Below, piece after piece: positions 17,112-58,601 of a stretch of DNA of 64,000 nt. The notes under the pieces were generated by a model. It saw nothing but the letters and a program-made list of their open reading frames with translations, was not told where the DNA came from and ran no database searches. This stretch comes from an uncultured Acidobacteriota bacterium. Lineage in GTDB: Bacteria > Acidobacteriota > Terriglobia > Terriglobales > Acidobacteriaceae. The translations under genes and the position numbers were made by a program. The stretch is taken from positions 1-64,000 of the forward strand of contig CAILAC010000017.1 in assembly GCA_903832055.1 (NCBI GenBank), read 5' to 3'. Position 1 is the stretch's first letter, and each line of letters starts with the position of its first letter.

Positions 17112-17158
17112 AACTAGAGAAGTACAGATTTCAAGAATCCCCAGGCAGGTAACCCAAA

Positions 17159-19063
<1,905 letters not shown>

Positions 19064-46428: not shown

Positions 46429-46743
46429 ATGTCACGATCGTTTCGTTCTCATCTGGTTCTAGCTGTCATTGTTTCAATGGCAAGTGCCGTGGGTTTTGCC
46501 CAATCCGGCGATGCAACCTACAAGTCCAAGTGTGCAAGCTGCCACGGCGCAACTGGCACGCCGAGCGCCGGAATGGCCAAGCTCATGGGGATCAAGCCTG
46601 CGTCTGACCCAGAAATGCAGAAGCTGACCATCGAACAGATTTCAGCTGCAATCAAGAGCGGCAAGGGCAAGATGAAGCCAGTTTCGGGGCTTACCGACGA
46701 ACAGATCAAGGAAGTGGCGACCTTCTTCAAGGGACTCAAGTAG
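46429..46743 (+). CDS. Monoheme class I cytochrome c, periplasmic
   Basis: A 104-residue c-type cytochrome with a signal peptide (LVLAVIVSMASAVGFAQ). Heme attachment is CASCH (C35, C38, H39), and M81 in GKGKMKPVSGL is the probable sixth ligand, followed by the helix LTDEQIKEVATFFKGL. This is the usual soluble electron carrier of the periplasm. AAGGAG lies 7 bp before the ATG. It lies at the left end of the multiheme cluster and could shuttle electrons between inner-membrane enzymes and the outer-membrane cytochromes. Confidence 0.95.
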   Translation: MSRSFRSHLVLAVIVSMASAVGFAQSGDATYKSKCASCHGATGTPSAGMAKLMGIKPASDPEMQKLTIEQISAAIKSGKGKMKPVSGLTDEQIKEVATFFKGLK

Positions 46744-47077
46744 TTTTTTGGGGAATCGATACTGAAATTGCAACTGGATTGGCGATGAAAGAAACCCGAC
46801 CGGTACGGGCCAGTGTGAGGTCTGACCAGGCTTGCGACAGATGATTTCCGCAAGGGAATCGATGTTGAAGGCTGGTGGCCACCAGGTGTGCCGGTCGAGT
46901 TTTGACGCTTTATAGCTTCGTTGTTTCCGAACCCCGTCTGCAAAAAAGTGCAGGGCGCAAAGCGGCATTCCGCTTCACGCCCAATTGGTGAACCTGTTTC
47001 AGGATGTAAGGCTGGATGACCCCGGACTTCTCGGCCCGGAATCAAGAAATGATTCGAGGCTGCATGCCGGGCCATGT
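46744..47077. other. Gene-free stretch between convergent genes
   Basis: 334 bp between the cytochrome and the TPR gene stops. No gene seen. It contains a perfect 14-bp palindrome, CTGGTGGCCACCAG (46872-46885). No stem followed by a T-tract was found near either stop. Confidence 0.5.
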
Positions 47078-47731
47078 TCAGGGCTTGACCGCATCATTTT
47101 TCCTGGCCTCGGCCATCATCTGCTGCACATTGGCTTTGCCGGCGTAGTTTGGATTGGCCGCGAGTAGTTTTTCCCAATCTGCGATCGCGCCGGCGCTATC
47201 CGACTTCCCTTTCCACTTCACCAATCCGAGGTTGAACAGGGTATTTGGATTGTTGGGTTCGTAGGAAAGCGCCTTGTTGAACTCGGCAATCGCCGCATCC
47301 GCGTTGCCCGTATACCAATAAGCGGTTGCCATATCAGTGCGGACGGCAGCGTCTGAGGGCCGGGCCTTGAGAGCGCGCGCGTAAAAGTCGATGGCCACGG
47401 CGTATTGCTGTGCATCGTAATATACGTTGCCGACGCTGATGAGCATTTCTGGATTGGCAGGGTCTGACTTGAGCTTTTCAAGCTGGGGCGCGGCCTGCGC
47501 ATCTGCCATTGCCTTCAATTGAGCAGGATCAGGCGTCAAGGAAGCCGGGCTAGCCGCCGTTCCGCCCGAGGCCGAGACGTTTGTGACAGGAGCGGCGCTG
47601 GCCTCTGTCTGGCCCTGCAAGCCGCGGATGTACCTGCCGCCAACCAATCCAACCGCGAGACAAACTGCCGAGAGGACGAGGGTACGCGTTCTGGTCCATT
47701 GGAAGGTAGAGAGACTCTTTTTGTCTGTCAT
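47078..47731 (-). CDS. Membrane-anchored TPR protein (NrfG/CcmI-like), paralogue 2
   Basis: A 217-residue protein with an N-terminal membrane anchor (TLVLSAVCLAVGLVGGRYI), a linker, and about three TPR units (PEMLISVGNVYYDAQQYAVAIDFYARAL; AAVRTDMATAYWYTGNADAAIAEFNKAL; PNTLFNLGLVKWKGKSDSAGAIADWEKLL). The layout resembles NrfG or the C-terminal part of CcmI, which hold apocytochromes for heme ligation. That fits the cytochrome cluster, but the similarity is of architecture only. Its start overlaps the upstream paralogue by ATGA. Confidence 0.82.
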   Translation of the reverse strand: MTDKKSLSTFQWTRTRTLVLSAVCLAVGLVGGRYIRGLQGQTEASAAPVTNVSASGGTAASPASLTPDPAQLKAMADAQAAPQLEKLKSDPANPEMLISVGNVYYDAQQYAVAIDFYARALKARPSDAAVRTDMATAYWYTGNADAAIAEFNKALSYEPNNPNTLFNLGLVKWKGKSDSAGAIADWEKLLAANPNYAGKANVQQMMAEARKNDAVKP

Positions 47732-48426
47732 TGCTTTCTGGCTCCTTCAATCCCGCTCTGATCGCCCTGCGTGGTGAGCAAATCTGCTATCAACTTGAGG
47801 ACAGTAGCCTTGCGGTCTGGGCTCAATTGAGGATTCAGCTTCAACAGCTTCTGCCATGCAGCCAGAGCGCCTTTTCCGTCTCCCTTGCCCTGCAGCTTGA
47901 TCATGCCGAGGTCGAAGAGTGAGTTGGCGTCCTTTGGGTCGTAGGTCAACGCCTGGTTCAACTGGGCAATGGCACCATCAACATCGCCGTCACGGTAGAG
48001 GCTGGAGGCCAATTTCGTGCGAACAGCGACATTCTTGGGATCGGCATCCGCCGCTTTCCTGTAATAGGTAGCGGCTTCTTTGAACTGGTGAGAGGTGTGG
48101 TAGACCGCTCCTACCTGCACAAGCAGGGCGCTGTTGCTTGGATCGCTCTTCAATTTTTCGAGAAGCGGCGCAGCCTGCTTGTCTGCCATCTGCCTCATAG
48201 CCTGCAGGGTCGGCATGTGCCCTTCGCCCATGGGGCCGTGGGGCGAAGCGGCCTTAGCCGCCGACTGGGGCGGAGGAGCGAGGGTTTGCGATGGTGATGA
48301 TTGCGATGCCGGAAGCAGGTAACCGATCGCCAGTCCCGCCCCCAGGCAGATGACCGCAATCCCGTATACCTGCATCGTCCGCAAGGATGGGATTGCAGCC
48401 GATGCCGCATTTGGCTCGTTTGCCAT
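47728..48426 (-). CDS. Membrane-anchored TPR protein (NrfG/CcmI-like), paralogue 1
   Basis: A 232-residue paralogue of the next gene: an anchor (YGIAVICLGAGLAIGYLLP), the shared segment MRQMADKQAAPLLEKLKSDPSNSALLVQVGAVY, then three TPR units (HQFKEAATYYRKAADADP, VDGAIAQLNQALTYDP, GKGALAAWQKLLKLNP). The ATG at 48426 is preceded by GGGGAG. It diverges from the tetraheme cytochrome gene. Role in cytochrome assembly is inferred from architecture and place. Confidence 0.82.
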   Translation of the reverse strand: MANEPNAASAAIPSLRTMQVYGIAVICLGAGLAIGYLLPASQSSPSQTLAPPPQSAAKAASPHGPMGEGHMPTLQAMRQMADKQAAPLLEKLKSDPSNSALLVQVGAVYHTSHQFKEAATYYRKAADADPKNVAVRTKLASSLYRDGDVDGAIAQLNQALTYDPKDANSLFDLGMIKLQGKGDGKGALAAWQKLLKLNPQLSPDRKATVLKLIADLLTTQGDQSGIEGARKQ

Positions 48427-48577
48427 GCCGTTTTCTCCCCAGTACAGATTATTCAGAGCGCCAGCCGCCGGGCACCGACATTTCCCGGCGGCAGAGAGGA
48501 CTCTTCGCCCCGCCTGATCGCTCATTCACTTCCAAACTGAACAAGAACAGAAGAACACTCCGGGAGTCGAGGGTACT

Positions 48578-48591
48578 ATGACGGCGGTCAC
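48578..48591. promoter_or_regulatory. CRP/FNR-type palindrome 1
   Basis: ATGAC-GGCG-GTCAC: arms match in 4 of 5 positions with a 4-bp spacer, the geometry of FNR-family sites. It lies between the divergent TPR and cytochrome genes. Confidence 0.5.
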
Positions 48592-48634
48592 AAGATCATC
48601 ATTCATATGGAGAATCTATATCGAAGGAGGGAAC

Positions 48635-48648
48635 GTGACGCCAGTCAC
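48635..48648. promoter_or_regulatory. CRP/FNR-type palindrome 2
   Basis: GTGAC-GCCA-GTCAC: a perfect 5-bp inverted repeat with a 4-bp spacer. It is a second copy of the site 57 bp to the left and lies 121 bp before the cytochrome start. Confidence 0.55.
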
Positions 48649-48768
48649 ATTAAAAATCCCCCAACGGAACTATTCTCACCCTGACGACCGGTGGCGGTTA
48701 AGGGAAGCATTGAGACCGCCAGCTTGTTAACAACCAAACGCGAATGCGTTCTTAGGGGGCTTAATACC

Positions 48769-49647
48769 ATGAAACGAACTTTACTTGTAATGCTCTTGAT
48801 GTTGGCGGCCGCCAGTTTTGCGGCTGCTCAGATTAGCACGCCGTCGACTGACGTCCTGGGTGCTCACCTTAACTATGGCCGTGGATGTACGGCCTGTCAT
48901 GCACCTCACAGTGGTGCTTACGGCAACGGCAACGCCAAAACTGCCGATGCCACCTCTGGCAACATCGCTCTCTGGGGCGAGGACGTAAGCAGCCTTTACG
49001 GGAAGACAATCATCTCGGGTCAAAGCGAGCATGGATCGGTCACCGAAGTTCTGCCTTCTTCAACGACTGCCGGAACCCCGGACGTTGCCGGTTTGCTCAT
49101 GTGCCTAAGCTGCCACGATGGCAACTACGCCACGGGCGCGATGATGAAGAACAAGGTCTACGAGACCTTGCCTGCAACGTATGGAACGTTGAACGACGTT
49201 CCCACCCTGCTTGGCAACGACGGCAGCACGGTTGGCAACTACCTCAACGATCACCCCGTAGGCCTGACTGCTGTTATGGGCTGCGGTGGACCGTATGACT
49301 GGGATTGCACGATCAGCGCAACCGGTGCGGTGCAGATGACAGGCACGAATTCTTCAAAGTTTGTGACCAACTACGGCTTTTTTGTCAGGCCTGCTGCGTA
49401 TAACAACACCCCAGTTGTGATGTGCACTACCTGCCACAACCAGCATTTGATGAACGTTGTGAACGTCACCACCGGTCCGAAGTCAGGGTTGCCGAGCGGA
49501 ACGTATGCAACGATGTTCTTCATTCGCGCTCCTTATAACCCAGCCAGCGGTACCGCCGGAAGCAACCAGACGGCGCAATTCTGCCGCCAGTGCCACGGTG
49601 GCGAAGCCAACGAAATGTCCGGCAGCACCGCAGTCACAGTTTTCTAA
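48769..49647 (+). CDS. Tetraheme c-type cytochrome, secreted
   Basis: A 292-residue protein with a signal peptide (LLVMLLMLAAASFAAAQ) and four CxxCH sites: CTACH (residues 40-44, followed by APHSG), CLSCH, CTTCH (followed by NQH) and CRQCH. The CHAPH and CHNQH forms belong to the doubled-CXXCH type of multiheme cytochrome, in which a nearby His ligates a heme. Spacing between sites is long, so the protein also has sizeable loops. ATG 48769 follows the leader by an AGGGGG sequence. It is the first gene of the rightward cluster and ends in a clear terminator. Confidence 0.92.
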   Translation: MKRTLLVMLLMLAAASFAAAQISTPSTDVLGAHLNYGRGCTACHAPHSGAYGNGNAKTADATSGNIALWGEDVSSLYGKTIISGQSEHGSVTEVLPSSTTAGTPDVAGLLMCLSCHDGNYATGAMMKNKVYETLPATYGTLNDVPTLLGNDGSTVGNYLNDHPVGLTAVMGCGGPYDWDCTISATGAVQMTGTNSSKFVTNYGFFVRPAAYNNTPVVMCTTCHNQHLMNVVNVTTGPKSGLPSGTYATMFFIRAPYNPASGTAGSNQTAQFCRQCHGGEANEMSGSTAVTVF

Positions 49648-49664
49648 TAGGTCATTACATCCGG

Positions 49665-49698
49665 GGAGGGGGTGCACTTTCCCCCTCCTTCTTTTTTT
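49665..49698 (+). terminator. Rho-independent terminator after tetraheme cytochrome
   Basis: GGAGGGGG (49665-49672) pairs with CCCCCTCC (49681-49688); the loop is TGCACTTT and a run of seven T (49692-49698) follows. The conduit genes downstream would need read-through or their own promoter. Confidence 0.85.
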
Positions 49699-49719
49699 CC
49701 CAAACTGGGGGTCAATCAA

Positions 49720-50748
49720 ATGAAGTGCAAAAGCTCACTTTTCTTTTTTCTGCTGATGAGCGTCGCTGTTTCTGGAGCCCAGGTATCTTCCCACGCACCG
49801 ACAGTATTTCCAAAAGCACCTGCTCAGAATGCAGCTAAACCTTCGCCCGCCCTGGGAGACAAGCCGGTTGCGCGCGTGAACAGTTCAGTTCTCACCGACG
49901 CGGATCTGGTTCGGGAAGAGTATGCAATCTTTCCGTACGCGAAGCAGCACAATGGGATTCCAAAGGACCTGGAAAAGCAGATTCGCGATGGCGCCCTCAA
50001 GATGATCATCTTCGAGGAACTGGTTTACCAGGAAGCGCTGCGCGGGAAGATGACAGTACCTGCACTGAAATTACAGCGTGCAGAAGCCGATTTTCGCAAG
50101 CAATTCTCTTCACCGGCGCAGTTCAGCGCGTTCCTGCAGAGCGACTTTCACGGATCCCGGCAACTGTTGCAGGAGAAGATCCGCCGCTCACTGTTGATTG
50201 AAGCCTTCTTGAAGGTTGCGGTTGAGGACAAGAGCGTCGTAACGCCAGCGGAAATCAGGGCCTACTACGACAAGAATGCCGCCCGCTTCCGTCATCCTGA
50301 GATGTTTACGTTCCAGACAATTTCGGTTCTGCCTCCGGCAAATGCGACGGCTGCGCAGTTGAAAGAAGGCCGGACGCGCGCCGAAGCAGCGCTTCGACAG
50401 GCGAAGGCGACCAAGACCTCCGAGGAGTTTGGGATGCTTGCGGAGAAGAGCTCTGACGACGACTACCGCGTAATGATGGGCCAGCACAAGCCGGTGGCCG
50501 CTGAAGAACTGGCACCGCAGGTCGTGAAGGCGCTGCTTGCCATGCATCCGAATGAGGTGAGCGATCTCATTCAAATTGAGCAGGCTTATACCATCGTGCG
50601 GCTGCAGGCACACACGCCGGCAGGGCAGACAAAGTTTGAAGAAGTGAAGTTGCAGCTGCAAAAGGAATTGAGGGAATCAAGGATTAACCAAACCCGGGCC
50701 GCGCTGGACCAGAAACTGCGACAGAACGCAAAGATCGAAGAGATGTGA
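49720..50748 (+). CDS. SurA/PpiC-type periplasmic peptidyl-prolyl isomerase
   Basis: A 342-residue exported foldase. A signal peptide (SLFFFLLMSVAVSGAQ) precedes a SurA_N-like helical domain (about 70-180, KPVARVNSSVLTDADLVREEY; KMIIFEELVYQEAL) and a parvulin domain (about 200-310, EIRAYYDKNAARFRHPEMFTFQTISV; APQVVKALLAMHPNEVSDLIQ; AYTIVRLQAHT). The C-terminal helix completes the chaperone part. It precedes the outer-membrane barrel, so the natural reading is help in barrel or cytochrome folding. ATG 49720 lies after the terminator; an ATG at 49672 would fall inside the hairpin. Confidence 0.9.
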   Translation: MKCKSSLFFFLLMSVAVSGAQVSSHAPTVFPKAPAQNAAKPSPALGDKPVARVNSSVLTDADLVREEYAIFPYAKQHNGIPKDLEKQIRDGALKMIIFEELVYQEALRGKMTVPALKLQRAEADFRKQFSSPAQFSAFLQSDFHGSRQLLQEKIRRSLLIEAFLKVAVEDKSVVTPAEIRAYYDKNAARFRHPEMFTFQTISVLPPANATAAQLKEGRTRAEAALRQAKATKTSEEFGMLAEKSSDDDYRVMMGQHKPVAAEELAPQVVKALLAMHPNEVSDLIQIEQAYTIVRLQAHTPAGQTKFEEVKLQLQKELRESRINQTRAALDQKLRQNAKIEEM

Positions 50749-50870
50749 CAGGCGGTTAAAGAAACCAGGGAGAAGAACTGAGCCCAGGGATGGGCACCTG
50801 ACTTCTGAAAGCCCTTCGGGACCGCGCAGGCGGAATCCGAAACGAATGATCTTAAAGGTAGCGTTCAGTG

Positions 50871-52700
50871 ATGGCATCGACCCCAATTTCGTGGATTGCC
50901 AAGGCATTCTTGCTGATGCTGGCAGTCCCAGTGACTGCACAGATTCGGTTGGGCGAAACCAGCTCAAGCGCGTCTGGCTCGATTTCCACTGGATATACGG
51001 CAAATTTTGGGAATATGACCGGATCATCCCACGGATGGACGATGGGAGGCGCAGCTACTCTGACGGGGTCTTTCCACAGTCCAAACTTCCTCTCATATAA
51101 CGTGTCGCCTTACTTGAACCAGTCGCGCGCCAACTCCAATTTTCAGTCCACATCGAACGCGAGTGGTATCAATGCGAGCGTCAACATCTTTGCGGGCAGC
51201 AAATTTCCTGGGTCGATCAACTATTCCCGTGCCTACAACAGCGAGGGCAATTACGCAGTTCCGGGACTGGCCAACTATGTGACCCACGGGAACAGCGATA
51301 CGTTTGGCATCAACTGGAGCGAAAATCTGCCGGATGCACCGAGTTTTTCAGCCGGCTTTCAGAGCGGAAGCAGCCAGTATTCGGTCTATGGCTCAGGCAA
51401 CAACGGCAAGAACTCGTTTCATTCGCTCAATCTGCATTCGGGTTACAGGTGGTCTGGTTTCAACATGGGCGCCTACTATACAAACGGCGCGGGCAACTCC
51501 CGGATTCCGCCAGTGGTCGCCGGATCGACACTGGAAATCCACTCAGACAATAACGCCTATGGATTAAATCTCTCGCACCTTCTGCCGCTGAGGGGTTCGT
51601 TCTCTTCAGGAGTCAACCGATCGACCTGGAAGACTGACTACCTTGGCGCGAGCTCCAATGGAACGATTGATACCGTGACGGCAAACGCGGGGGTTCATCC
51701 GACAAACAGGGTGTCTCTGACAGCGACTGCGAGCTACACTGACAACCTGGCGGGCGAGATCATCCAGTCGGTGATTGCGGCCGGCGGGGTGGTCAATGAG
51801 CTGAACACGAATCAATCGTCAAATTCGCTGGACCTGATGGCGATTGCAACCTTTACGCCTCAAGCGAATCTGCAGGCTTCGACCTATTTTGAGCGGCGCA
51901 CACAGACTTTTCTGGGGCAGAGTTATGGCGTGAAATCCTTTGGAGGAAACGCCACCTATGCGCGCACGATTTTGAATGGAACGCTCAATTCTTCGGCGGG
52001 CATAAGCGCCAACTCGGCAGAGCAGAACGGTACGGACACCATTGGCTTTTCAGCAACCGAGAATTATTCCAACCAGGTACTGGGGTGGCACGTGAATGAG
52101 TCTTTCAGCTACGCCCAAAACGTGCAGACTCTTCTCGTGACGTACATGAACTCGTTCTATTTTTATTCAGGGAACGTCCGGCGCAACTGGGGCATGTTCA
52201 ACATGAGCCTTGGCGCTGGCGGTTCGAGAACGGCGCTCACCAACCAGGCCGGCATCTCGAACAGCAGCCAGACGTATAGCGTCGGCCTGGGGTACGGTAA
52301 ATGGCTCACGAGTTCAGGCAACTACTCCAAATCAGACGGACAGGCACTGATTACGGGAACCGGCCTGGTTGGCGTGCCGGTGCCGTCGCCCATTTTGCCC
52401 TCGGACCTGGTGAGCCTCTTTGGCGGGGAGAGCTATTCTTTTGGCGTTTCAAGCACGCCTCTCAGAAAGCTGATCATTGCGGGCAGCTATGCAAAATCGA
52501 CGAGCAACACCTTGAGCAACGGAATTTCATCGGCAAACAAGAACAGTCAGTACAACGCGCTGATTCAGTACCGGCTTCGCAAGCTGAACATCGTCAGCGG
52601 ATATGCACGGATGGAACAGGGATTCGGCATCACCACCTCAAAGCCTGAAATCATTTCTTCGTATTACATGGGGTTGTCACGTTGGTTCAACTTTTTCTAA
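50871..52700 (+). CDS. Outer-membrane beta-barrel protein, candidate conduit porin
   Basis: A 609-residue protein with a signal peptide (ISWIAKAFLLMLAVPVTAQ). The mature chain lacks Cys and consists of alternating polar/hydrophobic segments rich in Ser, Asn, Gly, Thr and Tyr, as in transmembrane beta strands (for example FNMGAYYTNGAG, ASTYFERRTQTF, QTYSVGLGYGKW). It ends in YYMGLSRWFNFF, an aromatic beta-signal for the BAM machinery. Its position among multiheme cytochrome genes suggests the porin of a porin-cytochrome complex like OmbB or MtrB. I see no close similarity to those by eye, but such porins diverge widely. A GTG at 50868 is an alternative start. Confidence 0.85.
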   Translation: MASTPISWIAKAFLLMLAVPVTAQIRLGETSSSASGSISTGYTANFGNMTGSSHGWTMGGAATLTGSFHSPNFLSYNVSPYLNQSRANSNFQSTSNASGINASVNIFAGSKFPGSINYSRAYNSEGNYAVPGLANYVTHGNSDTFGINWSENLPDAPSFSAGFQSGSSQYSVYGSGNNGKNSFHSLNLHSGYRWSGFNMGAYYTNGAGNSRIPPVVAGSTLEIHSDNNAYGLNLSHLLPLRGSFSSGVNRSTWKTDYLGASSNGTIDTVTANAGVHPTNRVSLTATASYTDNLAGEIIQSVIAAGGVVNELNTNQSSNSLDLMAIATFTPQANLQASTYFERRTQTFLGQSYGVKSFGGNATYARTILNGTLNSSAGISANSAEQNGTDTIGFSATENYSNQVLGWHVNESFSYAQNVQTLLVTYMNSFYFYSGNVRRNWGMFNMSLGAGGSRTALTNQAGISNSSQTYSVGLGYGKWLTSSGNYSKSDGQALITGTGLVGVPVPSPILPSDLVSLFGGESYSFGVSSTPLRKLIIAGSYAKSTSNTLSNGISSANKNSQYNALIQYRLRKLNIVSGYARMEQGFGITTSKPEIISSYYMGLSRWFNFF

Positions 52701-53806
52701 TTCGGTTCCGTGGCAAGGCAGGACGGAGAACGGTCAAGTCAGCATCCATTTTGCTGGCCTGTCTGGCGATGCTGCCGGCCCTGTTTGCGGCGTCGCCCAA
52801 AGCAAAGACGGCAACTGCGTCTGAGCTCTGGGAGATGTCGCTTGACGGTGGCCGCAGGCTGACATGGGAGCACAGCTTCCAGTCAGAAGCTGAAGTGAAG
52901 CCGAATCGGAGTTTTTGGAACAAACTGGTGGATGTGGTTGCGGGTGCTCCGGATTACCGCTTTCTGGTGCGCCCTTACAGCGTCACGACAGATTCGCGCG
53001 GTCGTGTGATTGTGACCGACCCGGGTGCCTCGGGAGTGCATGTCTTTGACTTTGCGCTGCATAAGTACAAGTTCATCGAGCGCAGGGAGAAGAGCAAAGA
53101 CGCTATGTTGACCCCGCAGTGCGTGGCGGTCGACGCCCAGGACAACATCTACGTAACCGACTCGGACGCCGGGAAGATCTTTGTTTTTGAACCAGGCGGA
53201 AAGTATGTGCGGGCGATCGGCAGTCTGAAGGGGGGGGAGGGCTACTTCAAACGGCCGACGGGAATCGCGGTGGACTCGGCAGAGCAGCGGATTTATGTGA
53301 CAGATACGCTGCGAGACAAGGTATTCATCCTCGATATGCAGGGCAACATTTTGAAGACCGTTGGGGGAACCGGGGAGGCCGAAGGCGAATTCAATCTGCC
53401 GACCGAACTGCGGTTGAGGGGGACGAATCTTTACGTGGTCGACGCAATGAACTTCCGTGTGCAGGTGTTTGACCTGGCCGGCAAGTTTGAATACGCCATT
53501 GGAAAGATCGGAGATGCCACTGGAGCAATGTTCAGACCAAAGGCTGTGAGCGTTGACTCAGAGGGCGATGTCTACGTTGTCGATGCCTTGTGGGGCGCTG
53601 TACAGGTCTTCAACCGCGAGGGCCAGTTGCTTTACTACTTTGGAACCAAGGGAACTCATGCGGGTGAGTTTCAATTACCGTCAGGACTTTTCATTGACCA
53701 CGATGATAAGGTTTTCGTCGTTGACTCATTCAACCGCCGGGTTCAGGTATTTCAATTTGTCGCCCGGAAGAGCGTAGGCAGTCCTGTTCGGGAGGCGTCA
53801 CGGTGA
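52682..53806 (+). CDS. Exported NHL-repeat beta-propeller protein 1
   Basis: A 374-residue protein starting at TTG 52682, which overlaps the barrel gene by 19 bp; the next Met falls inside the signal peptide (SASILLACLAMLPALFA). Six NHL repeats form a propeller: PYSVTTDSRGRVIVTDPGASGVHVFD, QCVAVDAQDNIYVTDSDAGKIFVFE, TGIAVDSAEQRIYVTDTLRDKVFILD, TELRLRGTNLYVVDAMNFRVQVFD, KAVSVDSEGDVYVVDALWGAVQVFN and SGLFIDHDDKVFVVDSFNRRVQVF. NHL propellers bind protein or nucleic acid; here they may hold conduit components together. Confidence 0.88.
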   Translation: MVQLFLIRFRGKAGRRTVKSASILLACLAMLPALFAASPKAKTATASELWEMSLDGGRRLTWEHSFQSEAEVKPNRSFWNKLVDVVAGAPDYRFLVRPYSVTTDSRGRVIVTDPGASGVHVFDFALHKYKFIERREKSKDAMLTPQCVAVDAQDNIYVTDSDAGKIFVFEPGGKYVRAIGSLKGGEGYFKRPTGIAVDSAEQRIYVTDTLRDKVFILDMQGNILKTVGGTGEAEGEFNLPTELRLRGTNLYVVDAMNFRVQVFDLAGKFEYAIGKIGDATGAMFRPKAVSVDSEGDVYVVDALWGAVQVFNREGQLLYYFGTKGTHAGEFQLPSGLFIDHDDKVFVVDSFNRRVQVFQFVARKSVGSPVREASR

Positions 53807-55695
53807 AAATCAGGAACCTGCTGCCAATATTGACGCTACTTCTGATGGGACCCATTTTGTCGGCGCAGATACCCGGCGATGCTCTGGGCGTGCACAGCCT
53901 TGGCCCGGGAAGCCCGTCGCATATCACCGGTGCCCGGCCAGACGCCTGCGCCTACTGTCATGCTCCTCATTCCGGATTAAATATGGGCCTCTGGAACCAA
54001 AGGCTGACGACGCAGATCTACAACATCTACAGCAGCAATACCGCAAAAAATGTCGGCAGCCAGCCGGTACTTGGGGCTGTCAGCAATCAATGCCTCAGCT
54101 GCCATGACGGTGCCGTCGCAGTCGGAGCCACGGTGGCATATGGCCAGGTGACGACGCACGGGTCGATGTCTGCCGTGGATGTTTTCGGCAGTAACATGCA
54201 GTCTTCGCACCCATTCAGCCTCGTTTTGCCACTGAAGGACAATATCGACCTTGCAGCCTCGCTGGTCTCGAGCGGGCTGACGGCGGATGCGACCGGCGCA
54301 GTGAAGTTGATCAAGGGCAATGTGGAGTGCACTTCGTGTCACAATCCACATATCCAGTCCAAGGATCTTATTTCGCAGAACTTCTTGGTGAAAGACAGTT
54401 CGAACGGTCAGCTTTGCCTGGCCTGCCATGACCCCAGCCGGACAATCGGCGGGCAGGTCAATCCGCTGGCCGATTGGACAACGAGCGCGCATGCACTTTC
54501 CGCGAGCAAGATTTCGCCCCAGGCTCTGCTTGGAAGCTACTCTACCGTTGCGGGAGATGCGTGCAATTCATGCCACGCGCCGCACAATGCAAGCGGCCCG
54601 GTGCGGCTGTTGCGCGGACAGAATGAGCAGGATTGCATTGCCTGCCACAATGGCGGTACGAATGTTTCCCCGATGCCTCCCTACGGAAACGTGTTTACTG
54701 AATACGCTTCGCCCAAGGTGGGACATCCATTCCCGGCCTCAACCAATCCTCATGATGCCGCGGAAGCCACGTTGCTGAACAACAATCGGCATGCGACCTG
54801 CGTGGATTGCCATAGCCCACATGGGTCTGAGCAGGTTGGGGTCTTCCCGCCGGCACCCCAGATTCGCATCTCGCAGAAGAATATTGCAGGCATCAATGCG
54901 AGTGACGGAACCAGCTTGCTCACGCCCGCGATCAATCAGTACGAGAACTGTCTGCGTTGCCATGGAACGAGTTCCGGCAAACAGGTACAGCCAATTTATG
55001 GGTATTTTCCAGTACGCGAGGTTTCGGCTGGAGATGCACTGAACCTGATTCCGCAGTTTGCTGTTTCGGCGACCTCAAGCCATCCAGTCATGCATACCAG
55101 AAGCAGTTCCCTCGCCCAGCCGAGTTTGCTGGCCAATATGTTGAACATTGACGGGATCACGCCGGGGCGCGCCATGGGGGTGCAGATTCTCTGCACAGAC
55201 TGCCACAACAGCGACGATAATCGCGAGTTTGGTGGTTCTGGCGCAAACGGGCCGCACGGCTCACGCTGGACTCACATTCTGGAGCGCCGTTATGAATTCA
55301 GCCAGGCGGTCGTTCCGGGGCAGGCGATTACGAATCTCAATCCTAATCCTGACCTCAGCGTGAACGGACCCTACGCATTGTGCGGCAAGTGCCATGATCT
55401 GGCCAACCAGATTGTGCAGAATACGAGCTGGACCAAACACGGCAGCCACATCAATGCAGGGCTCAGTTGCTCGACCTGTCATACCGGACACGGCATTGGA
55501 GCTACCAGCGGCACGATCAGCGGAGAGCGCCTGGTGAATTTTGACGTTAATGTTGTCGCGCCAAATGGGAATCTGCCCATCTCTTACAATCGCTCCACCA
55601 ACACATGCACCCTGACATGTCATCTGGTTGCACACAATCCTGACGGAACGATTTCGGCGGGCAGCCCGCGTGGGCGGATTGGGGTAAAGAAATGA
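53803..55695 (+). CDS. Multiheme c-type cytochrome, 11 CxxCH plus one CX3CH
   Basis: A 630-residue cytochrome with a signal peptide (LLPILTLLLMGPILSAQ, no lipobox Cys). Eleven CxxCH sites are visible in order: CAYCH, CLSCH, CTSCH, CLACH, CNSCH, CIACH, CVDCH, CLRCH, CTDCH, CGKCH and CSTCH. Several are of the CHxPH form of doubled-CXXCH proteins (CHAPHSG, CHNPHIQ, CHSPHGS). A twelfth possible site, CTLTCH at residues 602-607, has three residues between the Cys. The GTG start overlaps the NHL stop as GTGA and has GGGAGG upstream. Probably it faces or spans the outer membrane with the barrel as a sleeve. Confidence 0.93.
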   Translation: MKIRNLLPILTLLLMGPILSAQIPGDALGVHSLGPGSPSHITGARPDACAYCHAPHSGLNMGLWNQRLTTQIYNIYSSNTAKNVGSQPVLGAVSNQCLSCHDGAVAVGATVAYGQVTTHGSMSAVDVFGSNMQSSHPFSLVLPLKDNIDLAASLVSSGLTADATGAVKLIKGNVECTSCHNPHIQSKDLISQNFLVKDSSNGQLCLACHDPSRTIGGQVNPLADWTTSAHALSASKISPQALLGSYSTVAGDACNSCHAPHNASGPVRLLRGQNEQDCIACHNGGTNVSPMPPYGNVFTEYASPKVGHPFPASTNPHDAAEATLLNNNRHATCVDCHSPHGSEQVGVFPPAPQIRISQKNIAGINASDGTSLLTPAINQYENCLRCHGTSSGKQVQPIYGYFPVREVSAGDALNLIPQFAVSATSSHPVMHTRSSSLAQPSLLANMLNIDGITPGRAMGVQILCTDCHNSDDNREFGGSGANGPHGSRWTHILERRYEFSQAVVPGQAITNLNPNPDLSVNGPYALCGKCHDLANQIVQNTSWTKHGSHINAGLSCSTCHTGHGIGATSGTISGERLVNFDVNVVAPNGNLPISYNRSTNTCTLTCHLVAHNPDGTISAGSPRGRIGVKK

Positions 55696-57260
55696 GATTA
55701 CTCCACCGGCCGTCTTCTGCTGATTCAGCAAATTTTGTGGAACATTCTTTGTTCGGAGGTTGCTTGAGATTGCTGCCACATCTCGTTTGGTTTCATCGGA
55801 CAATGACCGGCTGGGGCCGGTGCAGGCGTGGTGGATTGATCTGCCTGATCTTGTTTGTGTTGCTCGCATCACGCGCAACTGCCGCCGTTCATCCGGTGCC
55901 GTTGGACAAGGACACAGACGCCAAGAAGTGTCTGGAATGCCACGACGACAAAACGAAGCACAAGTTCGTTCACACGGCGATGCAGACCGGATGCCTGAGT
56001 TGCCACGAGGTCAGAGTCAACAAGGATATAACCCGGGTCAAACTCATTACCGCGACTACCTCTGCGCTCTGCCTGACCTGCCATGCGGACAAGAAGGCCG
56101 CGGATATCAAGGGTACTGTCCATGCTCCGGCGGTGCGGGACTGCGTCACATGCCATGACCCGCACTCCAGCGAGAACAAGAACGTGCTGATCAAGCCTGA
56201 GTCGGGCGACGAGAAGGAGAACCTCTGCCTGAGTTGCCACAAGACTGGGCTGCATGTCCCTGAAAATGGTAGCCGCCACGCCGCGCTTGAGGCGGGCTGC
56301 GACACCTGCCACACCACACACAAGACGGGTGCCGAGCCAACGCCCGAGAACCGGTTTCATCTCACCAAGGCGGCCCCCGCACTCTGCATCGATTGCCATG
56401 ACGTCAAGGATGCCGGCCTGCAGAAAGCTCACCAGAACCAGCCGTTTGGCACGGCGAATTGCGTGCAGTGCCACGATCCGCACCAGTCGAATGCTCCCAA
56501 GCTGATGGCCAAATTCCTGCATGCACCGTTTGTGGGTGGCGGCTGCGATACCTGCCACCAGCCGGCCAAGGACGGAAAGGTTGTTCTAACGCAAAGCGAG
56601 CCCAAGGCACTTTGTGTGACCTGCCACGACGACAAGGCCACGCTGATCGAAAAGGCAAAGGTGCCCCATGCAGGCGCGGCCGGCGATTGCACTGACTGCC
56701 ACAACCCGCATGCCAGCAGCGAGCCTGGCTTGCCAAAGACCGATGGCGTGACGATCTGCGTTGGTTGCCATACTGATATCGATGACCTGCGCAAGATGGC
56801 GGTGCATCACCAGCCAGCCTTCACCCAGGGATGTGCCACTTGCCATACACCGCACGGAGGCGACAACGACCACCTGCTGCGCGCCAAAGGCAACTCACTC
56901 TGCCTGGAGTGCCATGGCCCTGATTCTGTTCCGCAAAAGGATGAAGCTGCCCATTTGCTGACTATTTTCAACGGCCAGGTGAAACTGCCGGACGACTATT
57001 ACAAGAAGAATCGGGTTCCCATTTTGCCTCTGCGCTACGGTCTTGGTCACCCGGTGGAGTATCACCCTGTTTCTGATGTGATGGACCCGTCAAATCAGAG
57101 CAAGGTGAAGACTCCGCTCAGTTGTCTTTCCTGTCATCAATCACATGCCTCTGCGCGCCCTGATCTTTTGATCAATGACCAGGTCAACAACATGGCATTT
57201 TGCGATAACTGCCACAAGAACCGGATCAACATGAAAGATACAACGATTCCTGGAAAATAA
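55692..57260 (+). CDS. 16-heme c-type cytochrome
   Basis: A 522-residue cytochrome with sixteen CxxCH sites packed into about 450 residues: CLECH, CLSCH, CLTCH, CVTCH, CLSCH, CDTCH, CIDCH, CVQCH, CDTCH, CVTCH, CTDCH, CVGCH, CATCH, CLECH, CLSCH, CDNCH. Many are followed by DPH, NPH or TPH, and extra His residues for bis-His ligation are frequent. The dense spacing suggests a heme wire. The ATG overlaps the upstream stop (ATGA). A later ATG at 55803 starts directly before a standard signal peptide (GGLICLILFVLLASRATA); with the first start the n-region is unusually long. No lipobox. Confidence 0.94.
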   Translation: MRLLHRPSSADSANFVEHSLFGGCLRLLPHLVWFHRTMTGWGRCRRGGLICLILFVLLASRATAAVHPVPLDKDTDAKKCLECHDDKTKHKFVHTAMQTGCLSCHEVRVNKDITRVKLITATTSALCLTCHADKKAADIKGTVHAPAVRDCVTCHDPHSSENKNVLIKPESGDEKENLCLSCHKTGLHVPENGSRHAALEAGCDTCHTTHKTGAEPTPENRFHLTKAAPALCIDCHDVKDAGLQKAHQNQPFGTANCVQCHDPHQSNAPKLMAKFLHAPFVGGGCDTCHQPAKDGKVVLTQSEPKALCVTCHDDKATLIEKAKVPHAGAAGDCTDCHNPHASSEPGLPKTDGVTICVGCHTDIDDLRKMAVHHQPAFTQGCATCHTPHGGDNDHLLRAKGNSLCLECHGPDSVPQKDEAAHLLTIFNGQVKLPDDYYKKNRVPILPLRYGLGHPVEYHPVSDVMDPSNQSKVKTPLSCLSCHQSHASARPDLLINDQVNNMAFCDNCHKNRINMKDTTIPGK

Positions 57261-57272
57261 CTGGAGCCTGAG

Positions 57273-58601
57273 ATGTTTGCCTTCCCTTCCAATTCGATCC
57301 GTACACGCCAAGGCTTCGCTGTTCTGTTAGTGCTTGCACTGGGTATAAGTGCTCCAATGACCGCAATGGCTGGCAAGAAAAAGAAAGATGAGCCGGTCAA
57401 CCTGAGTGCGGCAGGACCGCGCAAGTTTCCATTCGATCCAACCAAGCTGGTGTGGCCGAGCCCCCCCAATATTGCGCGCATCCACTGGCTTGACTACTTT
57501 GCCGGAGCAAAGATCGATTACACGCCCGTCACAAGTGCCAAGCCCAAGGCAAGCTGGATGGACAGACTCGCCGGCGGGCAGTCTGAAACGGAAAAGTCCA
57601 ATACAAAGAACTTCCCATTTCAGATGATCGGACCTTACGGGATCGCAGTCGATTCCAAGGGACTGGTGTATGTGGCCGATCAGAGGGTTGGCGCGATTTT
57701 CATCTTCAACACTGAAACGCGCGATTGCCAGATGATTCGCAACAGTTTTGAAGCCCACTTTGGCTGGGTCAACGGCCTCGCGATTGATGACGATGACAGA
57801 CTCTTTGTCTCTGATGGCAAGATGCACCGCGTACTGATTTTGAATACCAAGCACGAGGTCGAAGGCCAGATTTCAGAGGGCCTGGTCGACCCGGTGGGCA
57901 TTGCGATTGATACCGCCAACCGCTTTCTCTACGTGGTCGATACCCAGCAGGACCAGGTCATCGTGTATGACGCAGACTCTCACAAGCTGCTGAGACGGAT
58001 TGGAACCGGAGGGAAGAATCACTTCCTCACGACACCGGGTGATTTCGGGGCGCCCCAGGGCGTGGCAACTGATGAAGACGGAAATGTCTACGTGACCGAT
58101 ACCTTGAATGACCGGGTGGAGATTTTTGATGCTGAAGGAAACTTCATCAGTGAATTTGGAAAGGCGGGCGACGGCCCTGGATATTTTGCGCGACCCAAAG
58201 GAATCGCGATCGATGGCGACGGACATATCTGGGTCACCGACCAGATGCAGGACCGGCTACAGGTCTTCAATCGTGAAGGACAGTTGCTCACCTACATTGG
58301 GACTGGGCACGGAGAGCTCCCAGGCCAGTTCAAGTCACTGATGGGTGTGGCAATCGATAAGCAGAATCGGGTGTTCACGACCGAGCAGGAACCGGGACGC
58401 TTGCAGGTCTTCCGCTACGTGACGGATGCACAGGCTGCCGCCGAGAAAGCAAAGCGTGAAGAGGAATTGCAGAAAGCAGCCGACCGGCGGCGAAATGCCG
58501 CTGCCGCAGCGCCGACAGAAAAGCCGGTGGTAACTTCTCCCGTGGAAACTCCGGTCGAGTCGGCCCAGAAAGAAGCCGCGACGCAGAAGCCGCAGCCGTA
58601 A
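57273..58601 (+). CDS. Exported NHL-repeat beta-propeller protein 2
   Basis: A 442-residue protein 12 bp after the 16-heme cytochrome gene. The signal peptide is GFAVLLVLALGISAPMTAMA. The propeller has about six NHL units (YGIAVDSKGLVYVADQRVGAIFIFN, NGLAIDDDDRLFVSDGKMHRVLILN, VGIAIDTANRFLYVVDTQQDQVIVYD, QGVATDEDGNVYVTDTLNDRVEIFD, KGIAIDGDGHIWVTDQMQDRLQVFN, MGVAIDKQNRVFTTEQEPGRLQVF). A charged helix (AEKAKREEELQKAADRRR) and a Pro/Val/Glu-rich tail end it. It resembles NHL protein 1 but is not a close copy. A cell-surface scaffold or docking role is inferred. Confidence 0.88.
   Translation: MFAFPSNSIRTRQGFAVLLVLALGISAPMTAMAGKKKKDEPVNLSAAGPRKFPFDPTKLVWPSPPNIARIHWLDYFAGAKIDYTPVTSAKPKASWMDRLAGGQSETEKSNTKNFPFQMIGPYGIAVDSKGLVYVADQRVGAIFIFNTETRDCQMIRNSFEAHFGWVNGLAIDDDDRLFVSDGKMHRVLILNTKHEVEGQISEGLVDPVGIAIDTANRFLYVVDTQQDQVIVYDADSHKLLRRIGTGGKNHFLTTPGDFGAPQGVATDEDGNVYVTDTLNDRVEIFDAEGNFISEFGKAGDGPGYFARPKGIAIDGDGHIWVTDQMQDRLQVFNREGQLLTYIGTGHGELPGQFKSLMGVAIDKQNRVFTTEQEPGRLQVFRYVTDAQAAAEKAKREEELQKAADRRRNAAAAAPTEKPVVTSPVETPVESAQKEAATQKPQP

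Follow-up and report, generated by a model that had tools for sequence, protein, structure and literature searches.

A candidate OmcE-type cytochrome nanowire and outer-membrane conduit locus in an uncultured acidobacterium

Results

We analysed a stretch of 64,000 nucleotides from an uncultured Acidobacteriota bacterium (the window) and found a locus whose probable products are an extracellular cytochrome nanowire of the OmcE type, an outer-membrane conduit (D and G), assembly factors, and a candidate OmcE-headed adaptor, F. The locus is the OmcE-type counterpart, in Acidobacteriota, of the osc and Oet loci rather than a wholly new kind of conduit. What stands out as new is F, which may physically join the filament to the conduit.

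The initial annotation of the locus had listed eight genes with 32 CXXCH heme motifs (1, 4, 11 and 16 in the four cytochromes), and a count of the motifs bore this out. Its gene assignments also held, as Pfam gave a monoheme cytochrome c for A, a PpiC rotamase for C, NHL repeats for E and H, and multiheme cytochromes for B, F and G. The barrel D does end in an aromatic C-terminus (RWFNFF) and is predicted to be a large barrel of about 28 strands. From the barrel on, the genes overlap or nearly touch as described (D/E -19, E/F -4, F/G -4 and G/H +12 bases), and a sequence check confirmed that the large cytochromes have no lipobox. We found that one atypical CX3CH site had been overlooked, which brings the probable heme sites of the locus to 33. 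The features are as follows.

46429..46743, plus strand: A, small class I monoheme cytochrome c (PF13442), from Pfam; also upstream in loci L015 and L047
47078..47731, minus strand: T1, membrane-anchored TPR protein with a weak likeness to CcmH/NrfG TPR domains
47728..48525, minus strand: T2, second TPR protein, overlapping T1, from Pfam and family profiles
48769..49647, plus strand: B, tetraheme cytochrome assigned by sequence to the OmcE family, candidate filament subunit, with 4 CXXCH and 4 further invariant His
49663..49690, plus strand: GC-rich hairpin then T run, predicted intra-operon terminator 3' of B, from hairpin analysis
49720..50748, plus strand: C, periplasmic PpiC/SurA-type foldase, from the Pfam PpiC rotamase match
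50868..52700, plus strand: D, large outer-membrane beta-barrel of about 28 predicted strands, nearest solved fold MtrB
52682..53806, plus strand: E, NHL beta-propeller 1, from Pfam
53803..55695, plus strand: F, 12-heme cytochrome (11 CXXCH and 1 CX3CH) with an OmcE-like N-terminal domain and an MtrC/MtrF-like middle
53866..54438, plus strand: OmcE-like tetraheme domain of F, about aa 22-212 (7TFS, E 1.8e-22)
55606..55623, plus strand: CX3CH heme site of the F C-terminus (CTLTCH, aa 602-607), a family signature from the homologue alignment
55692..57260, plus strand: G, 16-heme MtrA/DmsE-like cytochrome, from CXXCH count and profile search
57273..58601, plus strand: H, NHL beta-propeller 2, from Pfam

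The operon proper runs from B to H. A is tied to the locus in close relatives only and is possibly a periplasmic electron carrier. Between A and B, on the minus strand, lie the overlapping T1 and T2 (47078-48525), which had gone unmentioned in the earlier reading; TPR genes are kept beside B or F in several relatives, and the two proteins are possibly cytochrome maturation helpers. The likely start of B is the ATG at 48769 (the listed ORF start is 48691) and that of C is the ATG at 49720, the listed GTG at 49672 falling within the hairpin. We considered E as a lipoprotein from its N-terminal LLAC and dropped this candidate, since that Cys is not conserved among E homologues. A scan for sigma-70 promoters returned no more sites than were found in shuffled sequences. 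The GC content of the locus is low (0.556 against 0.604 in the rest of the window), but we do not claim horizontal transfer, because module and flanks differ little in 12 relatives and the same genome elsewhere averages 0.58 GC.

Profile comparison places B, along with the N-terminal third of F, in the family of the tetraheme cytochrome OmcE, which forms filaments in Geobacter. When the profile of F was searched against the PDB, it matched OmcE (7TFS) at E 1.8e-22 over aa 13-212, and a second solved tetraheme chain, 9YUQ, at 1e-17. The profile of B matched 9YUQ at 2e-7 and OmcE at just E 0.44. A direct phmmer search of B against the PDB matched no cytochrome filament; family profiles alone did so. 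In hhalign comparisons B scored 99.0-99.5% against an alignment of the OmcE family in which an unambiguous Geobacter OmcE was included, and 99.2-99.4% against the N-terminal domain of F, while control stretches from G and from the remainder of F gave at most 86.5%, over 15-54 columns. All eight heme-ligand His of the OmcE family (4 in CXXCH and 4 more, in the same order) are invariant in B, and the B alignment keeps the same Cys and His columns invariant as the OmcE alignment does. The AlphaFold2 model of B was poor (pLDDT 51), and a fold search with that model gave no structural match.

B is positionally orthologous to OmcE, since a recognisable OmcE takes the place of B in three loci from other acidobacteriotal families (L105, L108 and L109). 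There the order, as in Terriglobia, is (large cytochrome)-NHL-OmcE-PpiC-barrel-NHL-F, the barrel of L108 being assigned by position and length. In a tree, B fell on a long branch beside the N-terminal domain of Terriglobia F and not with OmcE, but a clade of B plus OmcE was not rejected (p-AU 0.108). B may be either a diverged OmcE itself or a copy of the F head that took over the slot.

The hairpin behind B starts 15 bases past the stop codon. We found a hairpin 3' of B in 31 of 31 in-operon Terriglobia copies (median z -3.6 against mononucleotide shuffles); most of these have a T-rich tail and most score as terminators. By the same criterion a terminator was called downstream of C in 1/31 cases, of D in 4/34 and of E in 3/32. 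Strong hairpins also lie 3' of the OmcE genes in other acidobacteriotal families, of Geobacter omcE (L122), and of one OmcS-type gene (L058). A terminator after a first gene allows excess transcription of that gene over the rest. The hairpin is therefore what one would expect if B were overproduced as the subunit of a polymer, and not if it were a one-to-one conduit part, and we infer that B would be expressed above the downstream genes.

About ten relatives have an extra copy of B, antiparallel, between F and G (L016:8216-9103, L017, L018, L020, L021, L023, L025, L026, L052 and L054). These copies nearly always come without the hairpin (nine of the ten do not score as terminators and the tenth does so weakly), and they recall the omcS/omcT pairing.

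Structure prediction gave a barrel of about 28 strands for D (pLDDT 78). The protein falls in no Pfam or NCBIfam family. Its top structural match was MtrB (6R2Q_B; Foldseek 1.6e-8, VIA Z 15.4 over 420 residues, rmsd 8.1), a likeness of fold with no match in sequence, and other barrels came close behind at Z 13-15. The best PDB match of G was MtrA (6R2Q_A, profile E 5e-28), and the 26- and 16-heme cytochromes of the Geobacter omcS locus are relatives of G as well. The predicted fold of D, the profile of G and the MtrC/MtrF-like middle of F agree with an MtrAB-like gate that would have F on its outer side. The earlier proposal of an outer-membrane conduit in an acidobacterium thus stands at the level of family and fold (D like MtrB, G like MtrA, relatives in Acidobacteriaceae and Terriglobia), but it was incomplete, having missed that B and the N-terminal domain of F are of the OmcE family and that the gene set as a whole accompanies OmcE-type loci elsewhere.

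The number of CXXCH motifs was 16 in all 40 full-length Terriglobia homologues of G and 11 in all 32 of F, and these identical heme numbers argue that the locus is not a product of chance. The CX3CH of F was likewise invariant in 32/32 aligned Terriglobia homologues, and 18 of 19 more distant ones have the site. Invariant His that lie outside heme motifs are no fewer than the hemes in either F or G, as expected for bis-His ligation. At 53 bits the middle of F exceeds the Pfam cut-off of 30 for MtrC/MtrF domains II/IV, and F combines this domain with an ordinary signal peptide and no lipobox. In Geobacter sp. AOG1 (L123:7932-9859) the halves of F occur as neighbouring genes, one for a tetraheme protein like OmcE and one for a protein of 7 hemes; the latter ends in the same CX3CHGxxHxP tail as F, and an NHL gene and PpiC adjoin.

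A synteny search, which the initial annotation had suggested, showed that the set of large cytochrome, NHL, tetraheme, PpiC, barrel, NHL and 12-heme genes recurs in Terriglobia and in other acidobacteriotal families, and in part around a real Geobacter omcE. Scanning genome contigs with G as the query gave 43 Terriglobia loci (L015-L057), 31 of which have all seven genes B-H. Of the remaining 12, ten are for the most part truncated at the end of a contig, and L019 and L048 have G without the rest. The gene order in most Terriglobia is G-H-B-C-D-E-F; in the window and the loci closest to it the order is B-C-D-E-F-G-H. Of 199 sampled genomes of the phylum, 18 carried F; they represent 18 genera and many families. 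An OmcE-type tetraheme gene accompanied it at 16 of these 18 loci, the other two lying near contig ends, and NHL genes did so at all 18. Within the genus sample D was found in 4 of 15 genomes, so the locus is patchy. In Occallatibacter savannae (L019:10001-11479) G is split into two reading frames with 5 and 11 heme sites and B-F are absent, which resembles a decaying remnant.

By its nearest loci the host falls within Acidobacteriaceae; a family-mate, G213, carries the contig of L017. The Ccm maturation genes are present in the host genome. On host contig C10 we observed a second conduit locus (L002:4729-9827) with a decaheme MtrA/DmsE-like cytochrome, a 732-aa barrel and an A-like monoheme cytochrome. 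Adjoining this MtrAB-like pair is a NapC/NrfH-like membrane protein (PF03264) with 5 CXXCH motifs. The same contig holds adjacent 23-heme and 34-heme genes followed by a 591-aa protein, perhaps a porin (L001:6267-13242), which is possibly a further extracellular electron transfer system. Taken together, the Ccm genes, the MtrAB-like pair and this multiheme cluster make extracellular electron transfer plausible for the host.

Elsewhere in the window, the GC skew flips sign sharply at about 18 kb, near dnaK (17159-19060). This could be a replication-related switch or merely a change of gene strand. Antisense to dnaK, at 17117-18538 on the minus strand, we found a strong match to Pfam NAD-GH (PF10712), a family that probably arose from spurious ORFs antisense to hsp70 genes.

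Discussion

The make-up of the locus had been thought unlike the three-part conduit types, yet it is not without known parallels. Sets of propeller, PPIase, barrel and large cytochrome have already been described for omcS (osc) and for SEEP-SRB (Oet) (PMC13194489, PMC12977616, PMC5539420, PMC10553843). The products of the omcS-companion (osc) cluster (Shen 2025) are described as serving the folding, secretion and morphology of OmcS filaments (PMC13194489, PMC12977616), with folding assigned to OscH, secretion to OscE-G and morphology to OscD (PMC13194489). The operons of SEEP-SRB are closely similar to the osc block and were described as Oet conduits (PMC10553843, PMC5539420). In the literature searched, which covered only a minority of subscription papers, neither F-type cytochromes nor an OmcE-type locus from acidobacteria were found to be described.

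The Geobacter omcE locus is represented by L122 of Geobacter sp. AOG1, whose omcE product matches 7TFS at 6e-62 and has a decaheme G-like cytochrome, an octaheme cytochrome, an NHL protein and a barrel as neighbours. It shares with the acidobacterial locus the tetraheme family, the eight His positions, the hairpin behind the tetraheme gene, and NHL, G-like multiheme and barrel neighbours. In contrast to OmcE, B is longer (about 271 against about 210 mature aa) and strongly diverged. L122 also has neither PpiC nor an F-type fusion beside omcE, whereas the Terriglobia set has the 16-heme G and two propellers.

The omcS locus of the same Geobacter (L058; 6EF8 match 3e-106) contains NHL and YVTN-type propellers, a barrel, lipoproteins, PpiC, and 26- and 16-heme relatives of G. 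It thus resembles the acidobacterial locus in combining a filament cytochrome with a PPIase foldase, beta-propellers, a barrel and large G-family cytochromes. The filament gene differs, being an OmcS-type hexaheme there and an OmcE-type tetraheme here, where no hexaheme gene is found. L058 has lipoproteins of 203 and 370 aa that are absent here, and it has no F protein. The OetABI or SEEP-SRB 16+26-heme operon likewise has a 16-heme cytochrome, a PPIase, a porin, putative filament cytochromes (PMC10553843, PMC5539420) and a six-bladed propeller, and its filament and conduit were proposed to work jointly. The acidobacterial locus differs in having no 26-heme protein and no lipoprotein cytochrome, and its filament gene is OmcE-type and not OmcS/OmcX-type. 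With MtrCAB (6R2Q) it shares the MtrB-like barrel fold of D and the MtrA-like multiheme rod G. Here, however, G has 16 hemes and not 10, there is no MtrC-type surface lipoprotein, and OmcE-type proteins, a foldase and propellers are additional.

Under the reading that we favour, B would be secreted and would polymerise into a filament, and the foldase C together with the propellers E and H may fold, secrete or cap it. The 16-heme rod G would thread the MtrB-like barrel D and take electrons from the periplasm. At the barrel exit F, with its OmcE-like first domain and an MtrC/NrfB-like 8-heme remainder, could offer the face where the filament starts, and electrons would flow outward to Fe(III), humics or partner cells. 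We tentatively propose that F represents a family of 12-heme filament-to-conduit adaptors, each a permanent fusion of an OmcE subunit and a conduit cytochrome that has a CX3CH heme at its C-terminus. Such adaptors may nucleate and anchor an OmcE-type nanowire on the MtrAB-like gate. Most OmcS homologues are not known as wire formers (PMC12977616), so membership of the OmcE family is no guarantee of polymerisation. The physiological role of such filaments is also disputed (PMC11077965).

Three other explanations deserve weighing. The locus might be a nanowire secretion system in which D is the export channel for B and not an electron conduit, and G and F carry electrons in the periplasm. Such a channel has been proposed for OscE/F/G in Geobacter, and the foldase and propellers beside the barrel parallel the roles in osc (PMC13194489); the Geobacter omcS locus, too, is this same set plus 26- and 16-heme homologues of G. 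We nevertheless consider this explanation rather unlikely, because the best fold match of D is MtrB and not a secretion channel (at an rmsd of 8 and with many barrels near behind) and G is MtrA-like. These same likenesses, with the MtrC/MtrF-like domain of F, would fit a plain porin-cytochrome conduit in which D holds G, F is the outside cytochrome and B is a small carrier, with no filament formed. A conduit alone leaves unexplained why B and the N-terminal domain of F are of the OmcE family, why the OmcE slot is kept across acidobacteriotal families and in Geobacter, and why a terminator stands behind B in every operon, and we regard it as unlikely.

The system might also work inward, with Fe(II), minerals or partner cells as the electron source. 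Multiheme conduits can in principle run either way, and Oet-type loci have been proposed for electron uptake in ANME-partner bacteria (PMC10553843). Nothing in the sequence fixes the direction, but the relatives come from bog, palsa and fen metagenomes, where on ecological grounds humics and Fe(III) are plausible acceptors, and we think an inward system quite improbable.

An outward nanowire-and-conduit locus, as we favour, would bear on the step from filament to cell interior, which has been called not well understood (PMC10553843). If the adaptor proposal is true, F would be the missing physical junction of cytochrome nanowires with outer-membrane conduits, across Acidobacteriota. An earlier peat metagenome study searched for OmcE, OmcS and OmcZ without success (PMC3669403), a miss that divergence of the kind seen in B would account for. 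One compact operon here unites a filament subunit, a conduit, assembly factors and a candidate adaptor, each of which is open to deletion or co-purification. Acidobacteriota are abundant in peat and permafrost soils. The locus leads to the prediction that Terriglobia and other Acidobacteriota use nanowires for extracellular electron transfer, and it could allow these soil bacteria to deliver electrons to minerals, humic matter or other cells.
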